Positions 8,516-52,255 of a stretch of 64,000 nt of DNA are shown here, one piece after another. The translations under genes and the position numbers were made by a program. The DNA comes from Lacinutrix sp. C3R15. Its GTDB lineage: Bacteria; Bacteroidota; Bacteroidia; Flavobacteriales; Flavobacteriaceae. The stretch spans positions 86,218 through 150,217 of the forward strand of contig NZ_JAHKPZ010000031.1 of NCBI RefSeq assembly GCF_018860825.1, given 5' to 3'. A model generated the notes under the pieces. The model was not told where the DNA came from, searched no databases, and worked only from the letters and a program-made list of their open reading frames with translations. Numbering within the stretch: position 1 is the first letter of the stretch; the number at the start of each line of letters is the position of its first letter.

Positions 8516-9016
8516 TTATTCATTAAGTAACTTTTCGGCTTTCCTGAAAATTTCAATATATTTAATTCGATTATAGGTAGCGTTTTTTTCTTCGGTTGGT
8601 TTTCCTGATACCATTAACTTTCTTTGTTTTTTATTCCAGTTGATTATGTATGCTATAGCTCTAAAGTTTTCCTCAATATCTATACTGTATCCTTTTATTT
8701 TTGCAATAGAGTCTGTAAGAAAAAAGTAGGTGCTTTCAGATTCCACTATTTTAATTGGTTTATTTGCTACTAAGTAGATTTTTGATTTTATTTCTCCGTA
8801 ATCCACATTTTTTACTTGCGCTATTTTAAAAATTTGTTTTTCCTTATGCCAAATTTTTAATTTACAGGACTCATTAATCAATTCAAAATTAGATTCAATT
8901 AGTTCGGTGTCAGTATCGATTGATTTTAATTGATTATCAATTTCAGTAATTTTGTTTTCTTGTCCAAAAACAAGAATTCCAATTAAGGTTAATAGTATTG
9001 TAAAAGTTTTTTTCAA
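8516..9016 (-). CDS. Secreted hypothetical protein (accessory)
   Basis: About 166 residues. I chose the TTG at 9016 because it gives a normal signal peptide, MKKTFTILLTLIGILVFGQ; a TTG four codons upstream is the alternative. The mature part has short beta-like segments (for example KSKIYLVANKPIKIVES) and a lysine-rich C-terminus (EIFRKAEKLLNE). I recognise no family. With the neighbouring DUF7000-like gene it forms a small accessory insertion whose flanks resemble the cassette ends at 42-50 kb. Confidence 0.7.
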   Translation of the reverse strand: MKKTFTILLTLIGILVFGQENKITEIDNQLKSIDTDTELIESNFELINESCKLKIWHKEKQIFKIAQVKNVDYGEIKSKIYLVANKPIKIVESESTYFFLTDSIAKIKGYSIDIEENFRAIAYIINWNKKQRKLMVSGKPTEEKNATYNRIKYIEIFRKAEKLLNE

Positions 9017-9159
9017 AATGTTGTACAACCTGTTTGTGTGTGAGTTCGTCGTGTATTTAGCAAACTAATTTAACAAAAAGAAACAAACTAGTTGAAAACC
9101 CAAAGTATTTTTAGAGTATATAAAAGTAAGAAGTGTTTTATATATGTTGTTAGGCGTTC

Positions 9160-9648
9160 TTAATCTAATGTTTTCAGATGGGTTAATATTTCATCTGAAA
9201 CTTGAATCATTTTGGTTTCTATTTGTTCTGTCAATTTACTCAGGTTATTGAAATCAGGGTTTTCAACTAACGTAGCTTCAAGAATAGAATATTTAGGCAT
9301 TTCGGTTTTTCCTTTATTCCATTTTGTGGTTTTTAACAATTCCCAATATTTCTTTTGATTCGGTATGGTATTTCCTAAAAGCCAAACCTCAAACCGCATT
9401 TCTAAGTGATTTAATACAAGTCCAAATTTTAGCTTTTTACTTTTTAATAAATCGTTAGTATAGTAAAAATAAGTATAGTCTAAATATCCATGAAGAATTC
9501 CTGCAAATGAATATTGGTGAGAAAGACTTTTAATGAAATCTGTTCTTAATTGCATAACAAATTTCACTAACTCGTTATAAGCGATTAATATGTCTCCTTT
9601 TTCTAATTGTTCTTTATAAATTGAAACATATTTATTCAAATCCTTCAT
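9160..9648 (-). CDS. DUF7000-like hypothetical protein
   Basis: A 162-residue cytoplasmic protein beginning MKDLNKYVSIYKEQLEKGDI. The central part contains GYLDYTYFYYTNDLLKSKKL, LVLNHLEMRFEVWLLG and a KYWELL segment followed by TKWNKG. This ordered pattern (YxxxFxF...H...R.E.WL.G...KYW) is what I recall for the DUF7000 family in Bacteroidota and Firmicutes; function unknown. The family name rests on memory of the pattern. The 3' flank (9131-9156) ends in TTTATATATGTTGTTAGGC, similar to the R1 repeat ends in the 42-50 kb region. Confidence 0.75.
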   Translation of the reverse strand: MKDLNKYVSIYKEQLEKGDILIAYNELVKFVMQLRTDFIKSLSHQYSFAGILHGYLDYTYFYYTNDLLKSKKLKFGLVLNHLEMRFEVWLLGNTIPNQKKYWELLKTTKWNKGKTEMPKYSILEATLVENPDFNNLSKLTEQIETKMIQVSDEILTHLKTLD

Positions 9649-9702: not shown

Positions 9703-12438
9703 CTAAAGTTGATCGTCTGATTGTTTACGTTTTTCGTATTTAATGTCTTGAAGAATACTTGATTTTATACCAATAAAGAAATTCCAAGAGCTTCTAGAAC
9801 TAAAAGGTACCCAAGAAAAATTCATTCGCCAGCTTAATAAATCACGTTCAAAACGCAATTGCGTATAGGTGAAACCTTGGTTTTTTAAATCGTAACCAGA
9901 AGAAGCTCCAACCGTCCAACGTGGTGCAAATTCTATATCACCAGAAAACATTAGGGAATGTGATGATATTTCGTTTTGCCTAGTAGAATTAGAGTAATTA
10001 ACAGCGTAGGCAAGACGTAAGCTCCAAGGTATTTTATAGTTGTATAAAGTACCTGATTCTTTTTGTTCGTCTTTGTTTTCTTGCTGGTTGTTATTTAGTC
10101 TTTGGTCTGCAAAATCTTCGGCTACACCAAATAAATCATCTGCACGTCCACCATTACGTAAGGTTTCATTTCTGCTATTTTCTCTACTTTCATCTTCAGC
10201 ACTAAATGATTTGCTACTTAAGGTGTAATTCATGGTTAAGTTTGCACTAGTAAGTCTAAATAAGCTTCCACCATTATTAATATTATAGGTATCTATTTTA
10301 GTGTTGTTATTATCTAAAGCATAAGGATCAAGAACAGCACCAAAATTTATAGACATTTTATCATCTAGTATTTGAGTACCACCACTAACTCGCAAAGGAC
10401 TCCATTGTAAAGAATCTCCAGCAAAATTATACGATGTAGAAAAGTTTAAATTATTTAGTAGTGTAATTTTTTTATCTTCAGTAGCAGTACTGTCTTTAGC
10501 GCGTACTTTGGCTTCTAGATTATTAGAAAGACTTAAACCTAAAGAACTAGAAAAGTTTTGATTTGGTGCACCATAAAGGCTTTCTTCAAAACGAGAAAAA
10601 TCTACTTCTTCTTCCACTTCACCATCTGCATTCACTACTTCATAAGAATCCCAATAGGTATCAAAAGCAGGATTTATATTATAACTTACCGATGGACGCA
10701 TAACATGCCTAATCGCTTTTATTTTAGGGTCTTTACCTTCTTTTTCAAAGTTAAACATACCATAAACTGTGGTTCCTAAACTTGTACTAAAATTATAAGT
10801 TCTATAGGCATCAAAACCATTTATGTCTTCAGTTATTTCTTCTTCTAAATCAGTATCGTAGTATTTGTTAACGGTATTAAACGTCCAGTTTTCTTCAAAA
10901 TTAGTACTGGCACTTAAACTAAAATACTTAAATAGTTTAAAGTTAGTAGATAAAGGTATACTGTGTTGTACACCCATTAAAGCATCATCCCACATTTCTT
11001 TTTTAAAGAACAGTGAATCTGTTGTAGTAATACTATTTTCTGCTGTTAAATTATATTGAAAATTAAGATTTTCTATTATACCATTATTGCTTCCTGTTTT
11101 ATTACCAAAAGGATAAATTCTACTAACACTAGCCTGAATTGTAGGTAGTGTCATGTTTATGGTTTCTGTATTTGTGTTTTGTGAGTGTGTTGCTGCTGCA
11201 CTAAAATTTACCTGTGGCTCTCCTTGAAAGGTTTTAGAGTATGAAACCGAAGAAGATAAGGTGTTATTTAAAAAACTAGAAACATTTGTTTGGTTAATAG
11301 AGGTTTGATAGTAAGAACTACTACCTAAGTTAACCGAAGCTGAAAAACGAGAGTTAGGACTCGATTTTGTGTCCTGACTATGTGACCAACGTATGTTGTA
11401 TATGGTGTTTTTAGCATAATCATCAAAACCACGCTCACTAGTAATTAGATTTTCATACCTAAAACTAACATTACCATTAAATTTATAACGTACATTATAT
11501 TTACTTTGAATGTTGGTACCATAACTACCATTGGTGTAATAATCCCCAAGAACGGCCAAGTCTAAATAATCATTAATAGCAAAATAGTAACCACCATTTT
11601 GTAAAAAATAACCTCTTTCGTTTTGTTCCCCAAAACTAGGAAAGATAACTCCAGAAGTTTGTTTTTTAGTTAACGGAAAATATGCAAAAGGCAAACCTAT
11701 AGGTGTAGGTACACCATAAATAAACATGTTAGTTAATCCTGTTGCTACTTTTTCATCTGGAACTACTTTGGCTTTACGTAGTAAAAAATAATATTCAGGA
11801 TCTTCTCTGTTTTCAGAAGTAGTATATTTTGCATTTTGTACAAAATAAACAGAGTCGTTTTCTTTTTTAGATATTTCACTATCAAAAAAACCACCTGCTT
11901 GTTCTGTTCTAGAGTTAAAAATTAAAGCTTTTTCAGTATCTATATTAAATCTAATAGAGTCTGGTTCTACTACTTGAGTCCCTTGTTTAAATACGGGATG
12001 TTGTGAGTATTCACCTAAAGAATCTTTTATTCTACCAGCATACACTTCGTTTTTACTATAATCTATAACAATAGTTCCTGCTTTAATTTCCATGTCACCA
12101 TAGATAATTTCGGCTTCGTTATATAAATATAGTTTTTGTTCTTTTCTATTAAAAGAAGTATAGTCTTTGGCTTTATAATTAACTATATCTGTTAAAAACT
12201 CTGGTTTAGGTTTTACAGAATCGTTTTTAGTAGAATCTTGTCCTTTTTCTGTAAGTTCTATTGTAGATGAAGGCTCTTTTGGCTTTAAAACATCGTTTAC
12301 ATTAATAGCAACAGAATCTCCCTTTTTTATAGGATGTATCTCTCCGCCAGAGTTTGGTCTGTCTTGAGCAAAGCTACACATGTTAATAAACATGGTAAAA
12401 CTTAGGGCAAAAAGTATTTGAAATTTATTTGTACGCAA
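9703..12438 (-). CDS. lptD: LptD-like LPS assembly outer-membrane protein
   Basis: About 911 residues. It inserts lipopolysaccharide into the outer membrane. After a signal peptide (ending MCSFAQ) comes an OstA/LptA-like beta-jellyroll region (YNEAEIIYGDMEIKAGTIVI, FKQGTQVVEPDSIRFN), then a long beta-barrel with repeating aromatic strands and the conserved pattern GVPTPIGLPFAYFPL / GVIFPSFGE. Both features fit the flavobacterial LptD family. The frame is open back to 12528, but the promoter box at 12486-12493 lies inside that extension, so I chose the TTG at 12438 (MRTNKFQILFALSF). It diverges from the cell-wall amidase gene. Confidence 0.88.
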   Translation of the reverse strand: MRTNKFQILFALSFTMFINMCSFAQDRPNSGGEIHPIKKGDSVAINVNDVLKPKEPSSTIELTEKGQDSTKNDSVKPKPEFLTDIVNYKAKDYTSFNRKEQKLYLYNEAEIIYGDMEIKAGTIVIDYSKNEVYAGRIKDSLGEYSQHPVFKQGTQVVEPDSIRFNIDTEKALIFNSRTEQAGGFFDSEISKKENDSVYFVQNAKYTTSENREDPEYYFLLRKAKVVPDEKVATGLTNMFIYGVPTPIGLPFAYFPLTKKQTSGVIFPSFGEQNERGYFLQNGGYYFAINDYLDLAVLGDYYTNGSYGTNIQSKYNVRYKFNGNVSFRYENLITSERGFDDYAKNTIYNIRWSHSQDTKSSPNSRFSASVNLGSSSYYQTSINQTNVSSFLNNTLSSSVSYSKTFQGEPQVNFSAAATHSQNTNTETINMTLPTIQASVSRIYPFGNKTGSNNGIIENLNFQYNLTAENSITTTDSLFFKKEMWDDALMGVQHSIPLSTNFKLFKYFSLSASTNFEENWTFNTVNKYYDTDLEEEITEDINGFDAYRTYNFSTSLGTTVYGMFNFEKEGKDPKIKAIRHVMRPSVSYNINPAFDTYWDSYEVVNADGEVEEEVDFSRFEESLYGAPNQNFSSSLGLSLSNNLEAKVRAKDSTATEDKKITLLNNLNFSTSYNFAGDSLQWSPLRVSGGTQILDDKMSINFGAVLDPYALDNNNTKIDTYNINNGGSLFRLTSANLTMNYTLSSKSFSAEDESRENSRNETLRNGGRADDLFGVAEDFADQRLNNNQQENKDEQKESGTLYNYKIPWSLRLAYAVNYSNSTRQNEISSHSLMFSGDIEFAPRWTVGASSGYDLKNQGFTYTQLRFERDLLSWRMNFSWVPFSSRSSWNFFIGIKSSILQDIKYEKRKQSDDQL

Positions 12439-12485
12439 CGCTTTTAATGTATTTTTGTAAAAGTATGGCTCGGTTTTTGAATTGC

Positions 12486-12493
12486 CAAAATTA
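12486..12493 (-). promoter_or_regulatory. -7 box TAATTTTG for lptD
   Basis: Minus-strand TAATTTTG matches TAnnTTTG and would start transcription near 12479, about 40 bases before the chosen TTG start. Confidence 0.55.
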
Positions 12494-12566
12494 CATATAT
12501 TTTTTATGATTAATTTAATATTAAGCAATTTAAAATAATTTAAGCCCTTAAATAGTTATTATCTGT

Positions 12567-41371: not shown

Positions 41372-41379
41372 TAGATTTG
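41372..41379 (+). promoter_or_regulatory. -7 box TAGATTTG before the alpha/beta hydrolase gene
   Basis: Exact TAnnTTTG match. The in-frame TTG at 41377 lies within it, so translation must start at the ATG at 41401, giving the lipoprotein signal. Confidence 0.6.
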
Positions 41380-41400
41380 CAGGAACGAATACATACCTAT

Positions 41401-42339
41401 ATGCGAATATTTTTAGTACTTGCACTTTCTACTTTGTTATTAAGTTGCAATGATCCTTATAAAAAGTTTAAGAAAACCCCGGATTATATTACCAATGCCA
41501 GTGGAATTGACCAATCTTATTTGGAAGCTTATGACGAAACTTTAAAGTTATGGAATGTCACGTATGAAGCATTATACATTCCTACCACACATGGTATTGC
41601 ACATGTATTGGTTAGCGGACCAGCAGATGCAGCGCCTGTAGTATTGTTACATGGCATGGATGCCAGTTCTACCATGTGGTATCCTAATATAGAAGCGCTT
41701 TCTAAAAACCATCGTGTATTTGCTATTGATTTTCTATTAGAAGCAGGAAAATCACATGTGTATGATAAAATGGATAATAAAGAAGAAGTTACCAAATGGT
41801 ACCAGGAAGTATTATTTGCGTTGCAATTAGAAAACTACCATTTAATTGGTGCTTCTCGTGGTGGTTGGTTAGCAGTAAACCTTGCTTTAAACAACCAAAA
41901 AAGTATTAAAAGCATGGTTTTATTGAGTCCTGCGCAAACCTTTACGTGGATTAAACCGAGTACAGATTTATTTAAAAATATTGTTTCGTTGCTTTCTTCT
42001 AAAGAAAAACAAATGGAACAAAGCCTAGAAAGCATGTCTACCAATGTCGCTAATATTAGCGATGCGTATTTAGCGCAGTATGCTATTGCTTTAAAAAAGG
42101 AATCGGAAAACCAATTTGTAGCTAGTATGCAGCCTTTTTCTAATTCTGAATTAAAATCATTACAAATGCCTGTATTGGTTTTAATTGGCGATGACGATAT
42201 GATTAATGAAAAACGAACCATAGAAATAGCCAAAATGCTACCGCAAGGAAAAGGAGAAGTGATACGCAATGCAGGACATTTCTTGTCTATCGATCAAGCG
42301 GAAATAGTGAATGCCAAGATGTTGGGGTTTTTGGAGTAA
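41401..42339 (+). CDS. Alpha/beta hydrolase lipoprotein
   Basis: A 312-residue protein from the ATG at 41401, with a lipobox LLLSCN (cysteine near residue 16). It has an alpha/beta-hydrolase fold with the oxyanion loop LLHGMDASSTMWYPN, the nucleophile elbow GASRGGW (Ser in GxSxG), an acidic residue in IGDDDMINEK and the catalytic His in NAGHFLS near the end. The substrate is probably a small ester, amide or lactone at the cell envelope. It sits immediately before the first R1 repeat of the accessory region. Confidence 0.88.
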   Translation: MRIFLVLALSTLLLSCNDPYKKFKKTPDYITNASGIDQSYLEAYDETLKLWNVTYEALYIPTTHGIAHVLVSGPADAAPVVLLHGMDASSTMWYPNIEALSKNHRVFAIDFLLEAGKSHVYDKMDNKEEVTKWYQEVLFALQLENYHLIGASRGGWLAVNLALNNQKSIKSMVLLSPAQTFTWIKPSTDLFKNIVSLLSSKEKQMEQSLESMSTNVANISDAYLAQYAIALKKESENQFVASMQPFSNSELKSLQMPVLVLIGDDDMINEKRTIEIAKMLPQGKGEVIRNAGHFLSIDQAEIVNAKMLGFLE

Positions 42340-42388
42340 TCATGGGGTTTCGTTGCGTGGTTTAAGCACCTAATTTAGCAAATACAAG

Positions 42389-42464
42389 CGGAATAGAAAA
42401 TACAATAAGATTTACGAAAGTAGACTAGGACTAGCAATAAATTTTATACGATGTTGTATGCTGT
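42389..42464 (-). repeat. R1 repeat, copy 1 (cassette 3' end)
   Basis: Plus-strand features: GGAATAGAAAATACAATAAG, then a GTAGACTAGGACTAGCAATA block and ATACGATGTTGTATGC. It follows the stop of the minus-strand AAA gene. The family consensus by eye is GTAAGTAGGCTAG, then about 10 bases, then AATAAATTTTATACG and ATGTTGTGC. Confidence 0.75.
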
Positions 42465-42469
42465 ACTTT

Positions 42470-43918
42470 TTAATCATATTTTAATTTCCGTAATATTTTA
42501 ATCGACTTTTTTAATTGAGCTTCTGTAAATTTTCTATTTAATGTGTTTTCAGGATGATGAATTGAATGCCTAATATATTTTGGCAGAGAAACGTTGTAAG
42601 TGTTATTATTTCTTGAATCAATCCATTGTTTGTCTTGGTCAAGTCCTTGAAGTTTAGCATTTTCTACTTCTTCTAGATAACCATATAACTCATTATGATA
42701 ATCAGTAGTTGGAATGTCAAAAACTTCAAAATTTACCTCTGAATATGAACTTGATGTTCTTTCAATTCTTTCAACTTTAGTTTTTTCATTATTCTCTTTA
42801 AAAACCTTAAAATTTCTATTGAGATTACTTTTGTCAATCAAATAATTTGAATGAGTTGCATAAATAACATAGGTTGAATTTTGTCTAGATGTTATTTTAT
42901 TTAGCTCTTTTCTCAAATTCAATTGAGCTTGTGGATGTAAATGAGTTTCTGGCTCATCCATTAGCAGAATTTTACTATTTAGAGATTCTGTTTTGTCATC
43001 AGCAGAAATTGTTAAAAGGAAACTAATAAACTGCTTAAAATCATCAGACCTTTGTGATGTGTTTTTAGCTTTATCATGTACATCTTTGTCTTCTATCAGA
43101 AGTGATATTTTATCACTATCTATTTCAAAAAGAATTGAAATTGGGTGATTTTCCCAAATAGTATTTATATGTTCAGTTACTTTTCTACTCAATAATGATT
43201 CTAGGTTTCTTATCCTAGCATGACTAGTTAAACTACTTATTTTTTTTGCTATTTCTTTTGTGGTCTTAATACCTGCAAGTTTAAAACAGTTATAAAGTGG
43301 TATTGAAATACTACTTGGTTTTGCTGAAAAGTCTGTTAAACTTATTTCGTCCAAAATCAAATACTTTGAAGTAGACTCCCAAAAGACTACAGTATGTGAG
43401 TAGCCATAAAAGAAATCAGGATAATTGCTTTTTATGAAAGAAGTAAGATTAAAGTCTTCTTCTGTACTTTCTTTCTCTTTTTTAGTAATGGTTTTAGCAT
43501 TACTCGAATATCCTTTGAAAATATTTGTTTTAAAGTTTACTTCTTCAGTTATTTCCCGTTCAATTTCCGTGTCATTATTAAAAACAATTTTGATAATTAC
43601 ATCTGTTGCAGAAATTTTGCTTGTAATTTCTTTCGGGCATTTGTTATCCTTGATTAATTGTTCTCGTAATTCTTTGATAATATTTTGACTAATTGAGTAA
43701 TGAAAACTAATTTCTACATTTTTAGTTTCGTCAAAATAATCTTCTGGATAGGTTAGATTTTCTTCGTCATATAGTGAAATTGCTTTGAGAATACTACTTT
43801 TTCCAGATTCGTTTATACCAAATAAACAATAAGTATAATTGTCACCTATTTTTTTTAATTCCAACTCTACATGTTCGATGCTTTTAAAGTTATGAATTTC
43901 AAGTTTGTTTAATTTCAT
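42470..43918 (-). CDS. AAA family ATPase (AAA_15/OLD-like) with C-terminal RxxxxH motif
   Basis: A 482-residue standalone ATPase. The N-terminal LEIHNFKSIEHVELEL is the SMC/Rad50-like RecF-type start. Walker A is Gly34-I-N-E-S-G-Lys40-Ser41, and Walker B plus D-loop is LLMDEPETHLHPQ. There is no TOPRIM domain, so it is not a complete OLD nuclease. The last 34 residues contain Arg450-HSIH-His455 (IRHSIHHPENTLN). RxxxxH is the HEPN ribonuclease signature, so an RNA-cleaving C-terminus is possible but unproven. The gene is bounded by a 9-bp perfect inverted repeat. A defence role is a reasonable guess. Confidence 0.8.
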   Translation of the reverse strand: MKLNKLEIHNFKSIEHVELELKKIGDNYTYCLFGINESGKSSILKAISLYDEENLTYPEDYFDETKNVEISFHYSISQNIIKELREQLIKDNKCPKEITSKISATDVIIKIVFNNDTEIEREITEEVNFKTNIFKGYSSNAKTITKKEKESTEEDFNLTSFIKSNYPDFFYGYSHTVVFWESTSKYLILDEISLTDFSAKPSSISIPLYNCFKLAGIKTTKEIAKKISSLTSHARIRNLESLLSRKVTEHINTIWENHPISILFEIDSDKISLLIEDKDVHDKAKNTSQRSDDFKQFISFLLTISADDKTESLNSKILLMDEPETHLHPQAQLNLRKELNKITSRQNSTYVIYATHSNYLIDKSNLNRNFKVFKENNEKTKVERIERTSSSYSEVNFEVFDIPTTDYHNELYGYLEEVENAKLQGLDQDKQWIDSRNNNTYNVSLPKYIRHSIHHPENTLNRKFTEAQLKKSIKILRKLKYD

Positions 43919-43941
43919 TTAGAATCTATGTTTTTCGTATT

Positions 43942-43950
43942 GCATACAAC
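43942..43950. repeat. Right arm of 9-bp inverted repeat bounding the AAA gene
   Basis: GCATACAAC here is the exact reverse complement of GTTGTATGC at 42453-42461, the end of R1 copy 1. The pair encloses the AAA gene and suggests the boundaries of a mobilised unit. Confidence 0.5.
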
Positions 43951-44030
43951 TCGTTATATAATAACTAAAGTCCCTTTTATTCATTAATAAAACACTTTTA
44001 GTCCAAAAGTTAGTAAAACGAAACTAGCCA

Positions 44031-44144
44031 TTAACACTTTAATGTACAATACGTAGTACTACGTATTTTTAGTAAAGTTATTTACAGTACTTTGCTACTC
44101 GAAGATAGAACAAGGTTTTGAAATCTCTTTACGGGAAACCGTAT
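44031..44144. repeat. R2 repeat, copy 1 with 20-bp palindrome
   Basis: A 114-bp block aligning ungapped with 44933-45046, with about 11 mismatches by eye. It contains the perfect palindrome AATACGTAGTACTACGTATT (44048-44067) and ends ACGGGAAACCGTAT. It fills most of the 321-bp gap 43919-44239, which holds no gene. Confidence 0.85.
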
Positions 44145-44169
44145 TTAGATTTAGTATTTAAAAATAAAA

Positions 44170-44232
44170 CACAAACGTAGGTTTGTGCTGTAGTAGGAGT
44201 GAACCAACAATATATTAAATATAGTGTTGGCT
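44170..44232 (-). repeat. R1-like end, divergent copy
   Basis: GTAGGTTTGTGCTGTAGTAGGAG and TAAATATAGTGTTGGC occupy the position and spacing of an R1 end, downstream of the minus-strand DUF4468-like gene. It is the weakest of the copies. Confidence 0.4.
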
Positions 44233-44239
44233 AAAGTTT

Positions 44240-44851
44240 TTACCATTTGTCTTTTTCTAATTCCTTAGATGTATTTCCTTCTTTTATTGCTTTTTCTAAA
44301 GCATCTAAAGTTGCAATTGCTGAAAGGTGTGATTTATAAAATGCTTTTCCCATAACTGTTCTTTGATATGCTTTTGGATTGATTGGAAATGATTCTTCAA
44401 CTTTCAACGATGAATGTGAATCTGACGTATTACCACTAACAATTTTTTTGTCATACTCTGTCAACGTTAAAATTATTCTAGCTCGACCTTCTTTAACATC
44501 AACTCTAACAATATGCCAACAATCAACATAAGTCGTAATTAATGAAACTCCAACATGAACATCTTTGTAAAGACCTTTACCAACAATACGTCCTAAATCT
44601 TTGTCTTGTGTTTGAATTACTGATTTTCCACTCCCATAATTATAGACAAAATAGTTTAGTGACCTGTTATATATTTCGTCTTTAGATTTTATTTCAGGAA
44701 CTTCAATAATTCTTGTGTATGAAACGTTTCCGTTGTCATCAAGTTCCCATTGACCTTCAATTTCAGCCAACATCTTCCTTGTTGTTTTGTTTTGCGAATA
44801 AGTTACAGATGTAACTAAAACCACTAATAATAATAGCGTAATTTTTTTCAT
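44240..44851 (-). CDS. DUF4468-like secreted protein
   Basis: A 203-residue protein with a signal peptide (MKKITLLLLVVLVTSVTYSQ). The mature part begins with a QWELDDNGNVSYTRIIEVPE stretch, then KSKDEIYNRSLNYFVYNYGSG and KDLGRIVGKGLY. This is the DUF4468 pattern of TBP-like fold secreted proteins in Bacteroidota, identified from memory. Function unknown. It is one of the five accessory genes and is flanked by R2 copies on both sides. Confidence 0.7.
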   Translation of the reverse strand: MKKITLLLLVVLVTSVTYSQNKTTRKMLAEIEGQWELDDNGNVSYTRIIEVPEIKSKDEIYNRSLNYFVYNYGSGKSVIQTQDKDLGRIVGKGLYKDVHVGVSLITTYVDCWHIVRVDVKEGRARIILTLTEYDKKIVSGNTSDSHSSLKVEESFPINPKAYQRTVMGKAFYKSHLSAIATLDALEKAIKEGNTSKELEKDKW

Positions 44852-44932
44852 ATTCTCGTTTGGTTTTTAATTTGTCAAATATCTTCTAATGTAAGTACTT
44901 CCAGTTATAAAGCAGTATTACAAAATCAATAA

Positions 44933-45046
44933 TTAACGCTTTAATGTACAATACGTAGTACTACGTATTTTTTGTAAAGGTATTGACAGTACTTTGCTTG
45001 ACGAAGATAGAACAAGACTTTGTAATCTCCTTACGGGAAACCGTAT
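44933..45046. repeat. R2 repeat, copy 2 with 20-bp palindrome
   Basis: Second copy of the 114-bp block, with the same palindrome at 44950-44969. It lies between the DUF4468-like gene and the cupin gene and runs directly into an R1 end. Confidence 0.85.
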
Positions 45047-45059
45047 AGCTAGTCTAAAA

Positions 45060-45120
45060 ATCTAAGAAGCCTTTTGTAAGTAGGCGAGAGGTTGGTAATT
45101 AATTTATATGTTGTTGGTAA
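45060..45120 (-). repeat. R1 repeat, copy 2 (3' end of the cupin gene)
   Basis: TTTTGTAAGTAGGCGAGAGG is followed by AATTAATTTATATGTTGTTG, matching the R1 consensus GTAAGTAGG...TTTATA.ATGTTGT. The cupin gene's stop lies 13 bases further on. Confidence 0.6.
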
Positions 45121-45132
45121 CTGTCTTTTTAG

Positions 45133-45705
45133 TTAAACGAATTTCAAATTATACTTTCCACAAATTGCGCTTACCTTTTCCATGTCAGGTGGTCCTGCAG
45201 GTAATTCCGCTAATTCCTTAAACATGTCTTCTAAACCAGCAGGAAAAATGCTTAACATGGCTCGGGATTTTTCTTCTCCCACAACTTTCCATGAATGTGG
45301 AACTCCTTTTGGGCAGAAAATCAAGTCACCTGCTTGTAGAATTGTGGTTTTATCCCCAACGAGCATTTCCACTTGGCCAGACAATACTTGAAAAACTTCA
45401 TCCTCATTATCATGAACATGTGGCGGAATTCCAACTCCTGGTTCATTATTCTGTTCAATTAAAGTGTACTGCCCATTGGTGTCTTTACCAGATAACTTGA
45501 TGTTTTGATTATCTCCCAAAACATTTAATTTGTTTCCCTCGTTCGCTTTAACAATTTTGGGATTTTGTAATTCTGTAACTGCTGCTTTTGAAGTTTCGTT
45601 GCTATTCTCCTTCTTTGTTTCGGATTTGCAAGCATTAATACTAGGAATAATGGATAGTGCTCCAATTCCCATTACTGACTTTTTTAAGAAATCTTTTCGT
45701 TCCAT
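45133..45705 (-). CDS. Secreted cupin-domain lipoprotein
   Basis: A 190-residue protein. The N-terminus MERKDFLKKSVMGIGALSII resembles a Tat signal (RKDFLKK, lacking the second Arg), with INACKS as a possible lipobox. The cupin core has GVGIPPHVHDNEDEVFQVLS (metal ligands His, His, Glu) and FCPKGVPHSWKVVG (final His). Such cupins bind a metal and act as enzymes or sensors; the substrate is unknown. A serine/glutamate/lysine linker follows the signal, as for a lipid-anchored protein. Confidence 0.85.
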   Translation of the reverse strand: MERKDFLKKSVMGIGALSIIPSINACKSETKKENSNETSKAAVTELQNPKIVKANEGNKLNVLGDNQNIKLSGKDTNGQYTLIEQNNEPGVGIPPHVHDNEDEVFQVLSGQVEMLVGDKTTILQAGDLIFCPKGVPHSWKVVGEEKSRAMLSIFPAGLEDMFKELAELPAGPPDMEKVSAICGKYNLKFV

Positions 45706-45785
45706 ATTATTGCGTTTTGATTGGTTTAACTATATTGTTATTAACGTATTTGTATACGATTTGGAGCGTGTTTAAGTTACTAAAA

Positions 45786-45860
45786 CCGAATAGAATATTC
45801 CTGCGGAATAATCGTAAGTAGGCTAGATCTAGCACTTAATTTATATGATGTTTTGCATAG
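45786..45860 (-). repeat. R1 repeat, copy 3 (3' end of the CocE/NonD gene)
   Basis: CCGAATAGAATATTCC, CGTAAGTAGGCTAGATCTAGC (a 12-bp palindrome GCTAGATCTAGC lies inside) and TTTATATGATGTTTTGC. It is the clearest match to copy 1. Confidence 0.75.
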
Positions 45861-45863
45861 TTT

Positions 45864-47624
45864 TTATTTTACAATTGGTAATTCTAAAAAAGATTTATTT
45901 GTTTTATTCCTATATATGTTCAAAGTTGGTATTCCTTCTTTCGGAACTTTGTCAAAGGTGTCTTTATCTGCCCCAGAAATTGCTATTCTAATAGAATGCC
46001 CTTTCTTTATGAGAATAGATGTTGGGTGTAACTTAAAGCTGATTTCTTCTATTGTATCCGTTGGCATAGGGGATGCATCTAATTTTTTAAAGGAATGATA
46101 CGGTATCGTATTAAACATAACATTCTTAGATAATTTTCGGTGTTGAAGCAAAAGGCCTCCTTCTGTAATATACCTGCTTTTTCCACTTGGATCTACATCT
46201 TCTAAGTAGACAAAAATGGCACCTTCTTTGTGTGTAGACGACAGGCTGAGAGAAATTACGGGAACTCCTGTAATTTGAAGCGGCTCTTCAAGTGGTGCGG
46301 TGGTATACGTTAGCATTAAGGAATCGGCAGCATTGCGATTATTAAGGTTAAGAATGTGTTTTCCCATTTGGGTTGTCCATCGATTGTTTGTACCAGTACT
46401 TACAGAAAAGTCCACTAGATATGCATCCATACCTTGTGGTGCTTCTGATGCTGAAGCATTTAATTTTCCGTTGGCATCTAAATAATAGGTAATTCTTTCT
46501 TGCCCTTTGGGTGGCCAAACATCAGATTGTTTAAATGATTCTTCTCCAAAATTATAGTACTTAATTGTTGGCCAATCTTCAACGTTTTTATTTTCCCCTT
46601 TTATATAATGGTCAAAGAAGTTACGTTGCAGTATAAGCTGTTCCGCTACCGATGGAACAGGTGCAACAATACTATCAGAAACAACAAATGGGCTGGCATG
46701 AGAACGTCCGCCATGTGAAGTTGGCATCATGACAACCTTCTGCGGATTGGTAAAATGCTGTAACCTTAATAAAGTACCTTCTGCTGTTCCAGCATCAAGC
46801 CAACTTGTAAGAACTAGCATGGGTATATTGGATTCCGAAATTTCCTTTTTCCAATGCAAGGGGTCAAGTTCTTCGAATTTGAAATCCCCAAATTTGGAAT
46901 CTTTGAATGGTGATGCAGTTAGGGCTTCCAATACGTTTGGATTGTTTTTGTGTGCTTTGATTGCTTCTGTTGGAATAGCTTCCTCCACACGCCTCACACT
47001 TACGCCCAGATGCTCCACTGAATTTTGGTCTAACCAATCAACATATTGACTCCATGGCGCTATAAAACTAGTTGCAAGCATTCCATAAGGACGACTAGGA
47101 CTCTCATATACATCAAAATCGGACCAACCAGGAATAACCGCTTTAATGGCTGGATGTTGCGTTGCACATAAAAGCTCTGCTGTTGTTCCAGAGTAAGAGG
47201 TACCATAGGCTCCCACCTTACCATCAGACCAGGGTTGGTTTACCATCCAATCCACAAGATACCAAGCATCTTTTACTTCCGTAGGCGTGTATTCTCCTAA
47301 ACGTACTCCATAAGAAGCACCAGTTCCCCTGACATCCACTTTTGCAAGGATATAATCATGGTCAAGAAAATACTTATCGCGTTTACTGAGTGCGGCAATT
47401 CGCTTTCCTGTTTTCGCGTCTTCTTTGCCTCTCCAGTATCGGGTAAATTCAAAGAGCACAGGAAGTTTTTGATTTTTGTATTTTTCTGGAAAGTAAACAT
47501 CCACAGCTAACTTTGTTCCATTTACAGCAGGGACATAATAAGACGCAACGTTGTTTTCTTGCGAAAAGCTGAATGGATAAATGGAAACAAAAAGGAGTAT
47601 AAATAATAATCTTTTAGCAGTCAT
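45864..47624 (-). CDS. CocE/NonD family hydrolase (S15-like)
   Basis: A 586-residue secreted enzyme with a signal peptide ending PFSFSQ. Residues 25-300 are an alpha/beta-hydrolase with the nucleophile in YGTSYSGTTAELL and VRGTGASYG, and a later segment MLVLTSWLDAGTAEGTLLRL. The C-terminal jelly-roll of X-Pro dipeptidyl peptidase type follows (EPLQITGVPVISLSLS, YSGKSRYITEG-like region DPSGKSRYITEGGLLLQHR). Members cleave proline peptides, cocaine esters or glutaryl amides; specificity here is open. Accessory gene bounded by R1 copies. Confidence 0.88.
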   Translation of the reverse strand: MTAKRLLFILLFVSIYPFSFSQENNVASYYVPAVNGTKLAVDVYFPEKYKNQKLPVLFEFTRYWRGKEDAKTGKRIAALSKRDKYFLDHDYILAKVDVRGTGASYGVRLGEYTPTEVKDAWYLVDWMVNQPWSDGKVGAYGTSYSGTTAELLCATQHPAIKAVIPGWSDFDVYESPSRPYGMLATSFIAPWSQYVDWLDQNSVEHLGVSVRRVEEAIPTEAIKAHKNNPNVLEALTASPFKDSKFGDFKFEELDPLHWKKEISESNIPMLVLTSWLDAGTAEGTLLRLQHFTNPQKVVMMPTSHGGRSHASPFVVSDSIVAPVPSVAEQLILQRNFFDHYIKGENKNVEDWPTIKYYNFGEESFKQSDVWPPKGQERITYYLDANGKLNASASEAPQGMDAYLVDFSVSTGTNNRWTTQMGKHILNLNNRNAADSLMLTYTTAPLEEPLQITGVPVISLSLSSTHKEGAIFVYLEDVDPSGKSRYITEGGLLLQHRKLSKNVMFNTIPYHSFKKLDASPMPTDTIEEISFKLHPTSILIKKGHSIRIAISGADKDTFDKVPKEGIPTLNIYRNKTNKSFLELPIVK

Positions 47625-47702
47625 TTTCTGGTATGTTAAATTATACGTAACGTACTTGTATGTTACTAGTTACGAGTTTAAATAACTAATTTAATAAATA
47701 AA

Positions 47703-47778
47703 AACGAAATAGAATATTCCGTAAGAATATTCGTAATTAGGTTAGGGTTAGGAATAAATTGTATACGTTGTTGTGCCT
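47703..47778 (-). repeat. R1 repeat, copy 4 (3' end of the amidohydrolase gene)
   Basis: ACGAAATAGAATATTCC, TTCGTAATTAGGTTAGGG, then AATAAATTGTATACGTTGTTG and TGCC. Same element order as copies 1 and 3. Confidence 0.7.
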
Positions 47779-47780
47779 CG

Positions 47781-49505
47781 TTATTTTGTTTCTTTCCTAT
47801 AAACCACTTCACCATTAAAAATAGTCATGTCGATTTCTGTATTTAAAATCTGATTTTCTTCTACAGTCATTAAATCTTGATTGTAAATGGTAAAATCCGC
47901 AAGCTTACCACTGGTAATAGAACCTTTAATATCTTCTTCAAAGGCACCATAAGCAGCATCTAAGGTGTAGGATTTTAACGCTTGCATTCGTGTCATTTTT
48001 TGTTCTGGCTCATAACCACCTTCAGGAGTTCCTTTCAGGGTTTTTCGGCTTACACTCGCATAAAAACTAGCAATAGGATTAAGAGGTTCTACAGGCACAT
48101 CTGTTCCATTTACAATAGGAACACCACTCTGTAATAATGCTTGCCACATGTAAGCACCTTCTTTGATACGTTTTTCACCCAAACGGTCAATAGCCCAAGG
48201 TCTATCGGAAGACAAGTGTATGGCTTGCATTGCTGGAATTACATGCAATGCAGCAAAACGAGGAATATCATCAGGATGTAGATGTTGCGCATGTTCAATA
48301 CGGAATCGATGATCGGCATCTAACATGTTTAATTCTTTTAACGCCAATTCATATTGATTCAGAATTTCTCTATTGGCACGATCTCCAATGGCATGCGAGC
48401 AGATTTGAAAATTGTTTTGCAGTCCTTTTATTGCGACTTCTTTTACTATATCCATTGGAAGCGTTTCATGGCCATAGTGCCCTTGGCGATCTGTGTACGG
48501 TTCTAAAAGCCAAGCACCTCTAGAGCCTAAAGCACCATCACAACTTAATTTTATAGAACGTATTGTTAACCGATGGTCTGGATCTATTCTTGGACCTTTT
48601 TCAAACCATTCTTCAAGTAATTCTTCACCACCTCTTAACATGGCATACATTCTAACATTCATTTTTCCAGCAGATTTCATGTCATCAAATAGTTCTATAA
48701 TATCTTTTGAAATACCTGCGTCATGAAAACTAGTGATACCATTTTTATGGCATGCTTCCATAGCAAGATGAAACGCTTTAATGTTTGTTTCTGGCGTTTC
48801 TTCAGGGATATGCTTGTAAATCATAGATATTGCATGTTCATTGAAAATACCTGTTGGCATACCAGATGCGTCTACAATAACTTCTCCTCCTTCCACAGCA
48901 TACGACTGGATTCCTTCTTTACGTAAGCCTTTTAATCCTGCAATTTCCATAGCTTTAGCATTTGCGAATCCTGCGTGACCACTTGCATGAAATAAAAAAA
49001 CAGGATTATCTGGAGATACTTCGCTGAGTAAATGATGCGTTTGAAATCCTTTAACGGTGTTTGCAGGCATACTGTCCCATTTGCTTTGGTGCCAACCGCT
49101 ACCTATGATCCATTCGCCTGGTTTAGACGTTTTCACTTTCGTAGCAACAGCGTCAACAATATCTTGATAGCTAGTGGTATGCATAAGATCAAGCTCTAAT
49201 TCATTATAGCCTAAGCCCATAAAATGACCATGCCCTTCAATTAAGCCTGGTGTCATTGTCTTTCCTTCTAAATTTATAAGTTCCGTTTGTTCATTTTGAT
49301 AGTTTTTGGCTTCTTCAAAACTTCCAGCAAAGAGAATTTTATCCTTTTTTGTTACCACAGCCTCCACTGTTGTTTGTGTAGAGTCTACTGTATAAATAGT
49401 TCCGCCATGAATAATCATGGTGCCATATTCTTTTTTATTATTAACACAGGAACTTAAAAAAAGGCAGGCTATTATTATGTTTAATTTAAAAAATCGTAGT
49501 GTCAT
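47781..49505 (-). CDS. Amidohydrolase family lipoprotein (YtcJ-like)
   Basis: A 574-residue protein with a lipobox (FLSSCVNNK). It has the metal-dependent amidohydrolase fold of the amidohydrolase_3/YtcJ type: GLIEGHGHFMGLG (HxH motif), CKNGITSFHDAGIS, the Lys or SLC region IRSIKLSCDGALGSRGAWLL, CSHAIGDRANREIL, RIEHAQHLHPDDIPRF and NGTDVPVEPLNPIASFY. Members hydrolyse amides or cyclic amides; natural substrates are mostly unknown. It ends the run of repeat-bounded minus-strand genes. Confidence 0.92.
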   Translation of the reverse strand: MTLRFFKLNIIIACLFLSSCVNNKKEYGTMIIHGGTIYTVDSTQTTVEAVVTKKDKILFAGSFEEAKNYQNEQTELINLEGKTMTPGLIEGHGHFMGLGYNELELDLMHTTSYQDIVDAVATKVKTSKPGEWIIGSGWHQSKWDSMPANTVKGFQTHHLLSEVSPDNPVFLFHASGHAGFANAKAMEIAGLKGLRKEGIQSYAVEGGEVIVDASGMPTGIFNEHAISMIYKHIPEETPETNIKAFHLAMEACHKNGITSFHDAGISKDIIELFDDMKSAGKMNVRMYAMLRGGEELLEEWFEKGPRIDPDHRLTIRSIKLSCDGALGSRGAWLLEPYTDRQGHYGHETLPMDIVKEVAIKGLQNNFQICSHAIGDRANREILNQYELALKELNMLDADHRFRIEHAQHLHPDDIPRFAALHVIPAMQAIHLSSDRPWAIDRLGEKRIKEGAYMWQALLQSGVPIVNGTDVPVEPLNPIASFYASVSRKTLKGTPEGGYEPEQKMTRMQALKSYTLDAAYGAFEEDIKGSITSGKLADFTIYNQDLMTVEENQILNTEIDMTIFNGEVVYRKETK

Positions 49506-49946
49506 AATAGTTGTAATTTGTTTTAGTTGATTAATTAATAATTTGCTAGTTTAATATAGAATCTGTTGTTTATTCATTTTAGCATTGGTTAGTGGTTATG
49601 TAACAAAATATATTACATAATAACTAAAGGTATTATTTTTTTTATGAATAAAACGCTTATAATCATGTAATTAAAGGGGGTAAATTACCATTTAAAATCC
49701 CTTTTTGCAATACGTATTTCTACGTGTATTTAATAATGTGAACGACAGTATTTTTTCAATGAAAAGTATAGCTATTTTTCTAACACAATTTTGGATTGTA
49801 TTGCATATAAAGTACAGCGATATTATTTGCTTTCACAAGATGGAGCGCATTAAAAGTATTTACAAAGTTATTCCTTTTAGTGTACAAATTAGTCGTGAAA
49901 GCCATTTCATCCTATGAAACTGCAGTATAAAAACCAGGGTAGCAAC

Positions 49947-49967
49947 TAGGAAATAGGAAATAGGAAA
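49947..49967. repeat. Heptanucleotide microsatellite (TAGGAAA)x3
   Basis: Three perfect tandem copies of TAGGAAA, not in a gene. A possible slippage site with no evident consequence. Confidence 0.85.
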
Positions 49968-49991
49968 ATATTAAACTCGTTTTATGCTAAC

Positions 49992-50012
49992 GGAATCTAT
50001 TCCGCGAAAGCG
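49992..50012. repeat. Hairpin at the 3' end of the YfcC-family gene
   Basis: GGAATCTATTCC is an inverted repeat, directly followed by CGC-GAAA-GCG, a stem with a GNRA loop. It lies just after the stop of the minus-strand transporter gene. The CGCTTTCGCGGAAT string is a common flavobacterial intergenic motif in my experience. Confidence 0.55.
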
Positions 50013-50016
50013 TAAA

Positions 50017-51510
50017 TTATATATAACTAGAAACAGTCATTACAATTAAAGTAAAGATTATGAGTATAATAAATAGTGGCATTACAAATTTTAGCCATTT
50101 ATTAAAACCTACTTTTACTACTGCTAAAGAAGCAAGTATGAGTCCTGTAGGATTAATAAAATAGAAAAGTCCCATACCATATTGATAAGCATTGACTACA
50201 ATTTCTCTACCAATACCAACGCTATCTGCTAGAGGAGACATGATAGGCATGGTAAGTACTGCCATACCAGAACTACTAGGTATAAAAAAGGAAAGTCCTG
50301 CGTAAACAGCTGTCATTGTGCTTGCAAACACCCCTTTATTCATGTCTTGGGTTATAGAACTTGCATAATATAAAAGGGTATCGCTAATTAAACCATCTGC
50401 CATGATAACGGTTACACCACGAGCAATACCAATAATTAATGCAACACCAAGTAAATCTCCTGCACCTTTTACAAAAGTATCTATAAAGTCGGTTTCTTTA
50501 ATTTTGGCTATAAAACCAATAAGTATAGCGCCTACTAAAAAGGTAGCTGTCATTTCTACAAACCACCATTCTAGTGCAACTACACCATAAATCATGACAA
50601 TAAAACTTAAAGCAAATACCATTAAAGATAAGCGTAAACGGGTTGTAAAAGTTACTGTTTTTGTGTTTGTATTTGTAAATAAAGCTGCTATTTGTTTTTG
50701 TTGGTCATACACAATAGATTTTGTAGGATCTTTTTGTACGCGTTTACCATAACGTATAATGTAAACTAAGGCAATAGTTAAACAGGAAAAAAGCATAAAA
50801 AGTCTTCCTGCAAGACCAGTGGTCCAGCTTATTCCTGCAGAATCACTTGCAATAATTGTACTAAAAGGGTTTATGGTAGAACACATGGTACCAATAGAGC
50901 TACCTAAAAAAATACAGGCAATACCAACCATAGCATCATATTTTGCAGCTAAAAAAACAGGAATTAAAATAGGGAAGAAGGCAATGGTTTCTTCTGCAAA
51001 ACCAAAGGTGGTTCCTCCTGCAGCTACTAAAGTAGTTACTAAAATAATAAGTATAAACTCACGGCCTTTTAGTGCATTTGCAAGCCAACTTATACCAGCA
51101 TCAAAAGCTCCTGTACTATTAATAATACCTATTAATCCGCCAATTATTAGGACTAGAAAAATAATATCTGCTGCTTCAATAATACCTTTAACAGGAGATT
51201 TTATAAATTCTAAAACACCTTGTGGTTGTGCTTCTAATTTTTGGTAGGTGTTTGGTATATTTATGGGTTTATAAATATCGCCATTTGTAAATTTTTCTAG
51301 GGGAATCTTTATGTTTAGTGTTTCTAAATTTTCTTGTGTTGCAGCTATTGTTTCGGTTTTTTCTAAGCCAATTCTAGAAAAGGTATTGTCTGCATTATTG
51401 TATGCTAGTGTTTCATATTTACCAGCAGGAACAATCCATGTTAATAAAGTAACCAATCCTGCTATGATAAGTAAAATGGTTTGTGCAGAAGGAAATTTAA
51501 TTTTTTTCAT
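50017..51510 (-). CDS. YfcC family (DcuC superfamily) transporter
   Basis: A 497-residue membrane protein starting at the ATG at 51510 (MKKIKFPSAQTILLIIAGLV); the 29-residue upstream extension is unlikely. It has 12 or more helices. Family hallmarks are TWIVPAGKYE near the start, TTFGFAEETIAFFPILIPVFL, ACIFLGSSIGTMCSTINPFSTIIASDSAGI and FFIPSSSGMAVLTMPIMSPLAD. YfcC-type transporters are thought to move basic amino acids or peptides; the substrate is not deducible. Divergent from ung with an 80-bp gap. Confidence 0.9.
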   Translation of the reverse strand: MKKIKFPSAQTILLIIAGLVTLLTWIVPAGKYETLAYNNADNTFSRIGLEKTETIAATQENLETLNIKIPLEKFTNGDIYKPINIPNTYQKLEAQPQGVLEFIKSPVKGIIEAADIIFLVLIIGGLIGIINSTGAFDAGISWLANALKGREFILIILVTTLVAAGGTTFGFAEETIAFFPILIPVFLAAKYDAMVGIACIFLGSSIGTMCSTINPFSTIIASDSAGISWTTGLAGRLFMLFSCLTIALVYIIRYGKRVQKDPTKSIVYDQQKQIAALFTNTNTKTVTFTTRLRLSLMVFALSFIVMIYGVVALEWWFVEMTATFLVGAILIGFIAKIKETDFIDTFVKGAGDLLGVALIIGIARGVTVIMADGLISDTLLYYASSITQDMNKGVFASTMTAVYAGLSFFIPSSSGMAVLTMPIMSPLADSVGIGREIVVNAYQYGMGLFYFINPTGLILASLAVVKVGFNKWLKFVMPLFIILIIFTLIVMTVSSYI

Positions 51511-51589
51511 ATTATAATTAAGTACTGAAAATTTTATCAAGTTTAAAGATAGTATTATTTTAGACTTCCATAAATAAGTAACAAAAGAA

Positions 51590-52255
51590 ATGCACATTAA
51601 TATTGATAGTAGTTGGCAAAAATATTTAAAGGAAGAGTTTGATAAACCTTATTTTGCTTCGTTGTTAAAATTTGTAGAAGAGGAGTATGCAAGCAATACT
51701 TGTTTTCCTGAAAAAGAACTTATTTTTAATGCTTTTAATTTATGTGCTTTTGAAGATGTAAAGGTTGTAATTATAGGGCAAGATCCTTATCATGATTACG
51801 GACAAGCTAACGGATTATGTTTTAGTGTAAATGACGGCATTGCATTTCCGCCATCATTAAAAAATATTTTTAAAGAATTAAATAACGATATAAACAAAAC
51901 CATTCCTGAAAGTGGCAATTTAGAATCTTGGGCTAAGCAAGGGGTTTTATTGTTAAATGCAACTTTAACAGTACGTGCGCATCAAGCAGGAAGTCATCAA
52001 AAAAAAGGTTGGGAAACTTTTACAGATGCTGTTATTAAATTGATAAGTGATAAAAAAGAGAATGTGATTTTTTTACTTTGGGGAGGATATGCTAAAAAGA
52101 AAGCCAAATTAATTAACACTAATAAACATCAAATTTTAAGCGCAGGTCATCCATCTCCATTAAGTGCTAATAGAGGGTATTGGTTTGGAAATAAACACTT
52201 TAGTAAAGTTAACTTCCTGTTGGAGCAAGATGGGTTTCGGCCTCTGGTTTGGTAG
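51590..52255 (+). CDS. ung: Uracil-DNA glycosylase
   Basis: A 221-residue family 1 uracil-DNA glycosylase. It carries the catalytic motif GQDPYHDYGQANGLCFSV near residue 63 (the water-activating Asp in DPYH) and the C-terminal HPSPLSANRGYWFGNKHF minor-groove motif with the catalytic His. Cytoplasmic; removes uracil from DNA as the first step of base excision repair. Its last 47 bases overlap the small membrane protein gene on the opposite strand. Confidence 0.97.
   Translation: MHINIDSSWQKYLKEEFDKPYFASLLKFVEEEYASNTCFPEKELIFNAFNLCAFEDVKVVIIGQDPYHDYGQANGLCFSVNDGIAFPPSLKNIFKELNNDINKTIPESGNLESWAKQGVLLLNATLTVRAHQAGSHQKKGWETFTDAVIKLISDKKENVIFLLWGGYAKKKAKLINTNKHQILSAGHPSPLSANRGYWFGNKHFSKVNFLLEQDGFRPLVW

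Follow-up and report, generated by a model that had tools for sequence, protein, structure and literature searches.

Introduction

Integrons are the textbook platform for gene capture and shuffling, and their canonical integrase gene, intI, mostly reads away from the array of cassettes. The added domain of IntI is held to be necessary in the literature (PMC9668308; PMC8138268; PMC4792948). Clusters of attC sites that lack an integrase are called CALIN, a term of IntegronFinder (PMC9024848). Here we compare with these systems a locus of Lacinutrix sp. C3R15 (Flavobacteriaceae), which lies within the stretch of 64,000 nucleotides that was analysed (the window; contig NZ_JAHKPZ010000031.1, positions 86,218 to 150,217). 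A first-pass annotation of this window had described five unrelated minus-strand genes with long gaps, each ending in a related 3' repeat, and had suggested an integron-like gene-capture locus specific to flavobacteria.

Results

The five minus-strand genes and the long gaps between them were confirmed. All five repeats were recovered by an independent profile, for which 128 of the 164 copies served as training set and this genome supplied no copy; they scored 13.6 to 78.5 bits, on the minus strand throughout, against a best background score of 6.6 bits across 20 Markov-shuffled windows. Unless noted otherwise, every feature of the cluster and its flanks lies on the minus strand. The highest scoring site (42355-42487, 78.5 bits) is found 3' of a gene for an AAA ATPase (42470-43918, Pfam AAA_15/AAA_21). 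A site of 13.6 bits (44192-44260) follows a DUF4468 protein gene (44240-44851, Pfam DUF4468); this is the lowest score of the five, and the same repeat, placed at 44170, had been called weak in the first-pass annotation. The remaining sites are 3' of a cupin gene (site 45056-45151, 23.3 bits; gene 45133-45705, Pfam Cupin_2), a CocE/PepX-type hydrolase gene (site 45766-45880, 30.5 bits; gene 45864-47624, Pfam Peptidase_S15/PepX_C) and an amidohydrolase gene (site 47673-47809, 67.6 bits; gene 47781-49505, Pfam Amidohydro_3). The cluster is flanked by conserved genes for an alpha/beta hydrolase (41377-42339, plus strand) and a DcuC-type carrier (50017-51597), and one extra attC-type site lies outside it (9050-9169, 20.6 bits). 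No Rfam family scored above its gathering score in the window and an integron-integrase profile search of the window returned no match, in agreement with the earlier remark that no integrase was in view.

A pair of leader-like repeats of 133 bp had escaped the first-pass list. One copy lies upstream of the AAA-ATPase gene (44012-44144) and contains the palindrome TACGTAGTACTACGTA; the second, with 86% identity, lies upstream of the DUF4468 gene (44914-45046).

The repeats are likely to be attC-type recombination sites of gene cassettes. The AAC and GTT of these sites are conserved, but the R' core is mostly not GTTRRRY, a motif satisfied by just 3 of the 33 distinct R' heptamers, or 9 out of the 139 heptamers called; that the core does not follow GTTRRRY strictly had been observed from the start. 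When joined attC sites were folded in silico, the bottom strand was predicted to fold better in 78 of 79. In the wider search that the first-pass annotation had proposed, the model found many more copies, on one strand per array; one complete relative carries two such arrays, with 47 and 56 sites (E <= 1e-3). The exact attC consensus pattern had 0 matches in viral_contigs. In Polaribacter phage P12002L, which is reported to carry attC sites (PMC9892861), the model gave partial matches only, of 34-71 bases, some of them perhaps to its A-rich flank.

The left end of a cassette, comprising the 6-7 variable bases after GTT, complements the cassette's own right end before AAC. Within one cassette complementarity averaged 6.22 of 8 positions (132 of 161 pairs usable) vs 3.03 of 8 across the gap (n = 129), and none of 2000 permutations was as high. 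This was replicated in 32 further named loci (6.12 vs 2.65; 113 of 148 pairs usable; 0 of 2000 permutations). The 77 pairs of duplicated cassettes, which fall into 8 families, delimit the same unit, with an identity at the right edge of 1.00 through G|TT and of 0.09-0.51 beyond it. A cassette consists of a gene plus an attC, with G|TT edges and ends that are complementary within the cassette. The duplicated unit is asymmetric, with the gene and the repeat on its right, and identity to its left is no higher than the shared attC consensus gives, which together rule out a transposon flanked by terminal inverted repeats around each gene.

A tyrosine recombinase, which had been named as something to look for near such arrays, heads the arrays in 19 of 42 loci of relatives, with 12 more interrupted by a contig end, and in 50 of 80 named loci, with a further 20 interrupted in the same way. 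Sites around the named recombinase loci are distributed almost entirely to one side (206 downstream on the same strand, 1 downstream on the opposite strand and 1 upstream), and the integrase mostly reads toward its array. No attC-type site was detected, despite remaining contig, at 10 of the 80 named loci, and the same was true of 5 of the 42 in relatives. An attI-type site adjoins the integrase at the array head: an attI-like array start, with the left end that the right end predicts, was found in 15 of 19 loci at 27-111 bp behind the recombinase, and an attI-like site lies within 200 bp in 34 of 46 named loci vs 3.5% in the control. Its sequence is ATATAACnn|GTT. A recombinase of this kind, together with an attI-like junction, is encoded in this genome too, 115 bp from the end of a contig; the right end of the first cassette behind it was not found in this genome, where 17 places fit with 1-2 mismatches vs 20 for the reversed control pattern. 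Together, the end complementarity, the G|TT edges of duplicates and the attI-like array starts amount to an integron geometry.

Matches to the array-recombinase profile were present in 137 of 247 sampled Bacteroidia genomes, not all of which need be array-linked, while canonical IntI was present in 1 of the 247. Twenty class-wide integrase loci were picked by hand, in six of which the contig downstream is shorter than 3.3 kb. Of the 20, 5 had chained exact cassette pairs and 6 had weak model matches, three loci showing both. A chained pair arose in 14 of 400 shuffled loci. A count on the other strand is no control here, since the pattern reads identically on both strands. The restriction to flavobacteria suggested earlier does not hold for the recombinase family, which extends across the class, although few of the loci examined outside the bacterial family of this genome, a minority, had arrays. 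Of the 102 cassette proteins that were examined, some match models of defence genes, including HerA, HamB and a methyl-directed restriction enzyme.

Discussion

The locus is, with high probability, an integrase-less gene-cassette cluster of a flavobacterial integron-like system, in which an attC-type site at the end of each cassette would be cut and joined at G|TT by a tyrosine recombinase that lacks the insert specific to IntI. The gene-capture reading of the first-pass annotation is supported by the checks it had itself proposed: many further copies on one strand per array, gene content between sites that varies among congeners at the same locus, and a tyrosine recombinase of the expected kind heading arrays in relatives. 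The array-head recombinase likely moves the cassettes, a movement that we infer from sequence. The bottom strand of an attC would fold into a hairpin, which the recombinase would join at GTT to attI in double-stranded form; new cassettes would thereby enter behind attI. The N-terminal domain found in most of the enzymes, with its weak resemblance to the HARP/XPB DNA-recognition domains, may read the hairpin in place of the I2 insert, which has this role in canonical IntI.

Within the window itself, the array is an integrase-less cluster with mostly decayed cassette ends. The AAA-ATPase cassette is the only one with convincing matching ends: its R'' end (GCATACAAC, 42453-42461) is the exact complement of its own left R' end (GTTGTATGC, 43942-43950) over 9 nt, and the left end runs into an attI-like junction, ATATAACGAGTT (43948-43959), the sole match to ATATAACnnGTT when both strands of the window are searched; this motif is also found behind integrases elsewhere. 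Of the 7 end bases at the site AAC, the other four cassettes match in 2 to 4. A free search did produce matches of 6-7 of 7 for the cupin, CocE and amidohydrolase genes, which were set aside because they lie at AAC triplets outside the sites; since unrelated AAC triplets give such values for three genes, a match of 6 of 7 alone is not striking.

There is about an even chance that the window cluster is a mere fossil, its genes fixed and its sites past recombining. The poorly matching ends of four of the five genes, the local absence of an integrase and the retention of the amidohydrolase in five of six congeners all fit this, and the amidohydrolase is likely a resident gene rather than a mobile one. 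The intact ends and junction of the AAA-ATPase cassette speak against it, as does the gene content at this locus, which, as the gene-capture proposal had anticipated, differs between congeners: three of the genes are missing there from each of the five congeners, and a fourth, the CocE/PepX-type hydrolase gene, is shared only with G002. One congener has an empty site. On the cassette reading, the cluster would be an old offshoot of the system that has mostly decayed.

It is unlikely that the system is simply an ordinary canonical integron of the IntI type that has diverged. Both have the same integrase/attI/attC layout, AAC/GTT ends and a better-folding bottom strand, and by eye the enzyme's C-terminus resembles that of IntI. 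However, the array recombinase scores 191.5 and 197.2 bits with TIGR02249, below the IntI cut-off of 265, and lacks the insert of approximately 42 residues of canonical IntI, with no counterpart to residues 202-247 of IntI4. The spacing from KGxKDR to HxLRH is 57-59 residues in 73 of 74 named integrases parsed, and in 7 of 7 and 6 of 6 others, as opposed to 100 residues in 11 of 12 canonical IntI loci parsed. The rarity of GTTRRRY among the distinct R' heptamers is a further point against divergence, as is a tree of 51 integrases in which the 11 IntI group as a single clade that excludes the flavobacterial enzymes, a join made unsure by long branches. That the repeats are intergenic elements of MITE, REP or terminator type, dispersed at the 3' ends of immobile genes, is most improbable, and for the arrays this is refuted by the end complementarity and duplicate edges. 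The sites do sit behind stop codons with a central hairpin, and the window copies mostly lack matching ends. Such an element, however, predicts neither variable bases before a gene that match those behind the same gene, nor duplicated units of gene and repeat with G|TT edges, nor array heads that bear a recombinase and an attI-like junction.

More tentatively, with the chances somewhat below even, the cassette system could be a separately evolved second integron lineage, in which a Xer-like recombinase moves folded single-strand attC without I2, mostly with an N-terminal HARP/XPB-like domain reading structured DNA instead; in the class Bacteroidia it would be the principal integron system, overlooked because surveys seek IntI with I2 and canonical attC. 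Most array recombinases carry this extra domain, and two array-linked enzymes are without it. Its resemblance to HARP/XPB is weak throughout: Pfam HARP matched weakly in 3 of 40 members, 4o66 ranked second when PDB sequences were searched with a profile and 2-3 in Foldseek, each with a weak score, and XPB was among the best VIA rows, also with a weak score.

Literature searches of mainly open journal papers, most of them aimed at integrons of flavobacteria or Bacteroidetes, yielded no report of such a system among the best 12 to 25 papers listed for each, out of up to 312. The system combines an integrase, an attI and arrays of dozens of cassettes without the supposedly necessary domain. If recombination runs as the sequences suggest, the need for I2 in handling folded single-strand DNA and the origin of integrons would become directly testable, and the distribution of the recombinase points to a large unread cassette pool in Bacteroidia.

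Of the known systems, the sedentary chromosomal superintegrons of the Vibrio type (PMC2727003) share with the present one a tyrosine recombinase with attI beside it, long arrays on one strand whose cassettes mostly hold a single gene, and attC sites with AAC/GTT ends, 9-10 complementary end bases and a better-folding bottom strand. Unlike the IntI of superintegrons, the present integrase has no I2 insert, falls below the IntI cut-off, mostly has an extra N-terminal domain and mostly reads toward the array, and its sites differ in an R' core that is not GTTRRRY and in the attI ATATAACnn|GTT. The closest relatives of the catalytic part, by both profile and structure, are the simple tyrosine recombinases of the XerA type (NF040815; PDB 5hxy, 4a8e); in contrast to these, the present enzyme scores slightly below the NF040815 cut-off (208.2 and 214.1 vs 220 bits), has the extra N-terminal domain and adjoins an array and attI. 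That domain weakly resembles the SMARCAL1 HARP domain and the archaeal XPB N-terminal domain, but sits on a tyrosine recombinase rather than a helicase. Lastly, the window cluster shares with CALIN several attC-type sites on one strand (five, where at least two define the class) and no adjoining integrase, and differs in that its sites are of the present type and its cassette ends mostly decayed.

Cassette-like genes in the window

The first-pass annotation had described five minus-strand genes in the window, separated by long gaps and each ending in a related block, and this was confirmed, with the genes placed at 42470-49505. By Pfam they belong to AAA_15/AAA_21, DUF4468, Cupin_2, S15/PepX_C and Amidohydro_3. 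An nhmmer profile of the repeat, trained on 128 of 164 copies with those from Lacinutrix sp. C3R15 (G000) excluded, recovered all five sites, with scores of 13.6 to 78.5 bits; the top score among 20 Markov shuffles of the window was 6.6 bits. The same profile detected a sixth attC-type site on the minus strand at 9050-9169 (20.6 bits), which lies between two small minus-strand genes (9160-9648 and 8516-9028) and therefore marks a second mini-cluster. On either side of these genes stand a RidA-like ORF (8027-8431) and a large ORF of outer-membrane type (9703-12528), both named by eye. Leader-like blocks of 133 bp at 44012-44144 and 44914-45046, upstream of genes, carry palindromes of the TACGTAGTACTACGTA kind and perhaps represent a putative shared promoter. 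Such palindromes recur in the congeners' copies of the locus (L167, L168, L169, L170, L171), and none was seen in the other array stretches scanned.

The locus had been proposed to capture genes, and the gene content between its sites was indeed found to vary among six congeneric genomes, in which it is either occupied or empty. The conserved flanking genes stand 2 bp apart in G006, with nothing between them, while the other five carry site matches on one strand between the same flanks (E ≤ 0.1; five in G000, five in G001, six in G002, six in G005 and 11 in G003). The amidohydrolase gene is common to five of the six loci and the CocE gene is found in G002 as well as G000; for the ATPase, DUF4468 and cupin genes, a search at E 1e-6 gave no counterpart in the five loci other than that of G000.

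Arrays and their recombinase

Searches of the genome and its relatives with a repeat model, as the first-pass annotation had suggested, revealed many further copies, with a single orientation in each array. BLAST with one copy as query gave 23 places in G000 at E ≤ 0.032, counting the query itself; several lie close to contig ends or on small contigs. The profile gave 41 matches at E ≤ 1 (36 at E ≤ 1e-3) in the G000 stretches analysed, uniform in strand within each array. The repeat was present in 22 of 60 genomes searched, G000 included, and two complete genomes hold long arrays. G020, judged by protein identity to be Formosa sediminum, has arrays of 50 and 57 matches at E ≤ 1 (47 and 56 at 1e-3), and the analysed stretches of G001, of the same genus as G000, have 21 and 15 (20 and 14); every site within one array is on the same strand.

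A tyrosine recombinase near the arrays, also suggested as a search target, was found. In G000 the integron-integrase profile scores highest against a tyrosine recombinase of 381 aa, encoded 115 bp short of a contig end (C35); one opposite-strand site lies 5.1 kb upstream of it. Its 42 best relatives in 60 genomes (E ≤ 3.5e-59, G000 included) head arrays of same-strand downstream sites at 19 loci; 12 loci, G000 included, lack downstream sites and have a contig break 0.1-1 kb downstream, and five lack any site. Three have upstream sites in opposite orientation (L133 of G007, L145 of G035 and L143 of G012:C7), and three encode short forms without sites, the contig ending 238-285 bp upstream. The sites at the three opposite-orientation loci fit the same attC model, and two of the recombinases there, of 272 and 277 aa, are likewise short forms that lack the N-terminal domain.

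Among named genomes, at least 575 stretches encode a relative, and the best 80 were examined; because these are the most similar, close relatives are overrepresented, and at least four of the 80 were judged to come from contigs already present in the first set. A downstream same-strand site was found at 50 of the 80, while 20 were siteless with less than 1.2 kb of contig left and 10 were siteless despite more. The sequence covered, 335 kb on the downstream side and 715 kb on the upstream side, contained 206 sites downstream on the same strand, one downstream on the opposite strand and one upstream.

Cassette ends, attC-type and attI-like sites

When an integron cassette is excised as a circle, its two ends together form one attC (compare PMC2727003). 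Since left and right end build one site, the variable bases flanking a given gene are expected to be complementary, more so than pairs across a gap. From 161 consecutive site pairs in stretches of G000, G001 and G020, 29 were discarded (GTT or AAC missing, L' box weak, or distance too short). Same-cassette ends matched on average at 6.22/8 (n = 132), compared with 3.03/8 across gaps (n = 129) and 2.65 at random, and none of 2000 permutations equalled the same-cassette value. At least 6/8 was reached by 82/86 pairs in G020, 21/27 in G001 and 13/19 in G000 (79/95 distinct pairs). A repeat with 32 named loci (113 of 148 pairs usable) gave 6.12 against 2.65 across gaps (n = 111), with at least six matches in 95/113 pairs and again 0/2000 permutations equalling the mean.

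By position, agreement was 0.91-0.92 for the first six bases, 0.73 for the seventh and 0.01 for the eighth. At the eighth base from GTT, 69 of 79 joined attC sites have C opposite A on the top strand, which corresponds to a G.T wobble in the bottom strand; this conserved mismatch may help strand choice, replacing or alongside extrahelical bases. Predicted folding with DNA parameters favoured the bottom strand in 78/79 (means -26.7 vs -21.9 kcal/mol).

Both ends were called for 103 cassettes, and comparison of these gave 77 full-length pairs, falling into eight families, with at least 90% identity, most contributed by one 558-bp G020 cassette with 12 near-identical copies scattered across both arrays (L072-L078; two pairs of copies adjacent). 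On the right side, family-averaged identity stays at 1.00 up to and including G|TT and is then 0.35, 0.51, 0.45, 0.20, 0.12, 0.09 and 0.27, followed by a conserved A. Beyond the left edge it varies from 0.27 to 1.00, which fits the presence there of the neighbour's attC consensus. Identity that ends at G|TT shows the copied unit to be TT-gene-attC-G, as in integrons.

From the first cassette's right end a left end (GTT plus seven bases, 8-10/10 matched) could also be predicted at all 19 array-heading loci of the first set, a prediction run without its own control; the match lies after the integrase and ahead of the first site, in 15/19 at +27 to +111 bp. At the named loci, a match of at least 9/10 lies no more than 200 bp from the stop codon of the integrase in 34/46 (random ends, 3.5%). 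ATATAACnn precedes many predicted junctions; at some loci of the first set an inverted repeat takes its place. Contig C35 terminates in an attI-like junction, TATATAAACTA / GTTACCAAAAATA.

In the window, the ends of the ATPase cassette agree at 6/7 at the site's AAC (GTTGTATGC and GCATACAAC, 9/9 counting GTT and leaving out the seventh base), and the attI-like ATATAACnnGTT occurs only at its left junction. An unrestricted search of the window also yields 6-7/7 at other AAC triplets, so such agreement alone is no proof. Agreement is 4/7 each for cupin, CocE and amidohydrolase and 2/7 for DUF4468; the locus is thus a mostly decayed cluster without integrase.

Cassette content

The longest ORFs between sites (102 non-redundant, median 265 aa) matched 120 Pfam families, none in more than four members, and 59 PADLOC models at E ≤ 1e-5. 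One two-gene cassette of the Formosa array (L078:436-1024, minus strand) resembles, by eye, a HigBA-like toxin-antitoxin pair.

Comparison with known integrons

Passages in earlier papers record integrons from the phylum Bacteroidota (PMC8618304) and the Bacteroidetes-Chlorobi group (PMC2426708), and attC sites predicted in a Polaribacter phage, one functional with IntI1 (PMC9892861). The relevant passage on IntegronFinder 2.0 gives Bacteroidetes as previously having integrase-alone elements only, and reports one complete integron, in Salinibacter ruber (PMC9024848). The additional domain of IntI is treated as defining in part of the archaeal-integron paper (PMC9668308), and Escudero and colleagues suggest that acquiring an I2-like domain opened the way to new single-strand substrates (PMC4792948). 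A section of a tyrosine-recombinase survey calls the insertion essential for integron function and incompletely conserved in an integron-like subgroup (PMC8138268); relatives without it had therefore already been noticed as sequences. No report of the present integron-like system was found among the top-ranked published papers that the literature searches listed.

Canonical IntI above cut-off was found in one of 247 sampled genomes of the class, and a profile built from the present integrase matched, at E ≤ 1e-50, 137 of 247 class genomes drawn likewise, G000 included, not all necessarily array-linked. Across a phylum-wide sample, canonical IntI above cut-off occurred in 85/296, only one of them in this class. 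Residues R229, K254, H318, R321, H344 and Y353 of the Formosa integrase P0001, which we take to be catalytic, are invariant across 32 aligned relatives. Some of these enzymes carry the NCBI name 'site-specific tyrosine recombinase/integron integrase', the product name of XerA-type NF040815.

The present integrase is not IntI as defined. It scores 191.5 and 197.2 bits against TIGR02249 (IntI), where the cut-off is 265, and skips profile positions 180-243; IntI4 (2a3v) aligns to it in two pieces, leaving chain residues 202-247 unmatched. The spacing from KGxKDR to HxLRH is 100 residues in the 11 canonical IntI parsed from 12 loci, whereas it is 57-59 in the present integrases (73 of 74 named, one unparsed, and 7/7 and 6/6 others).
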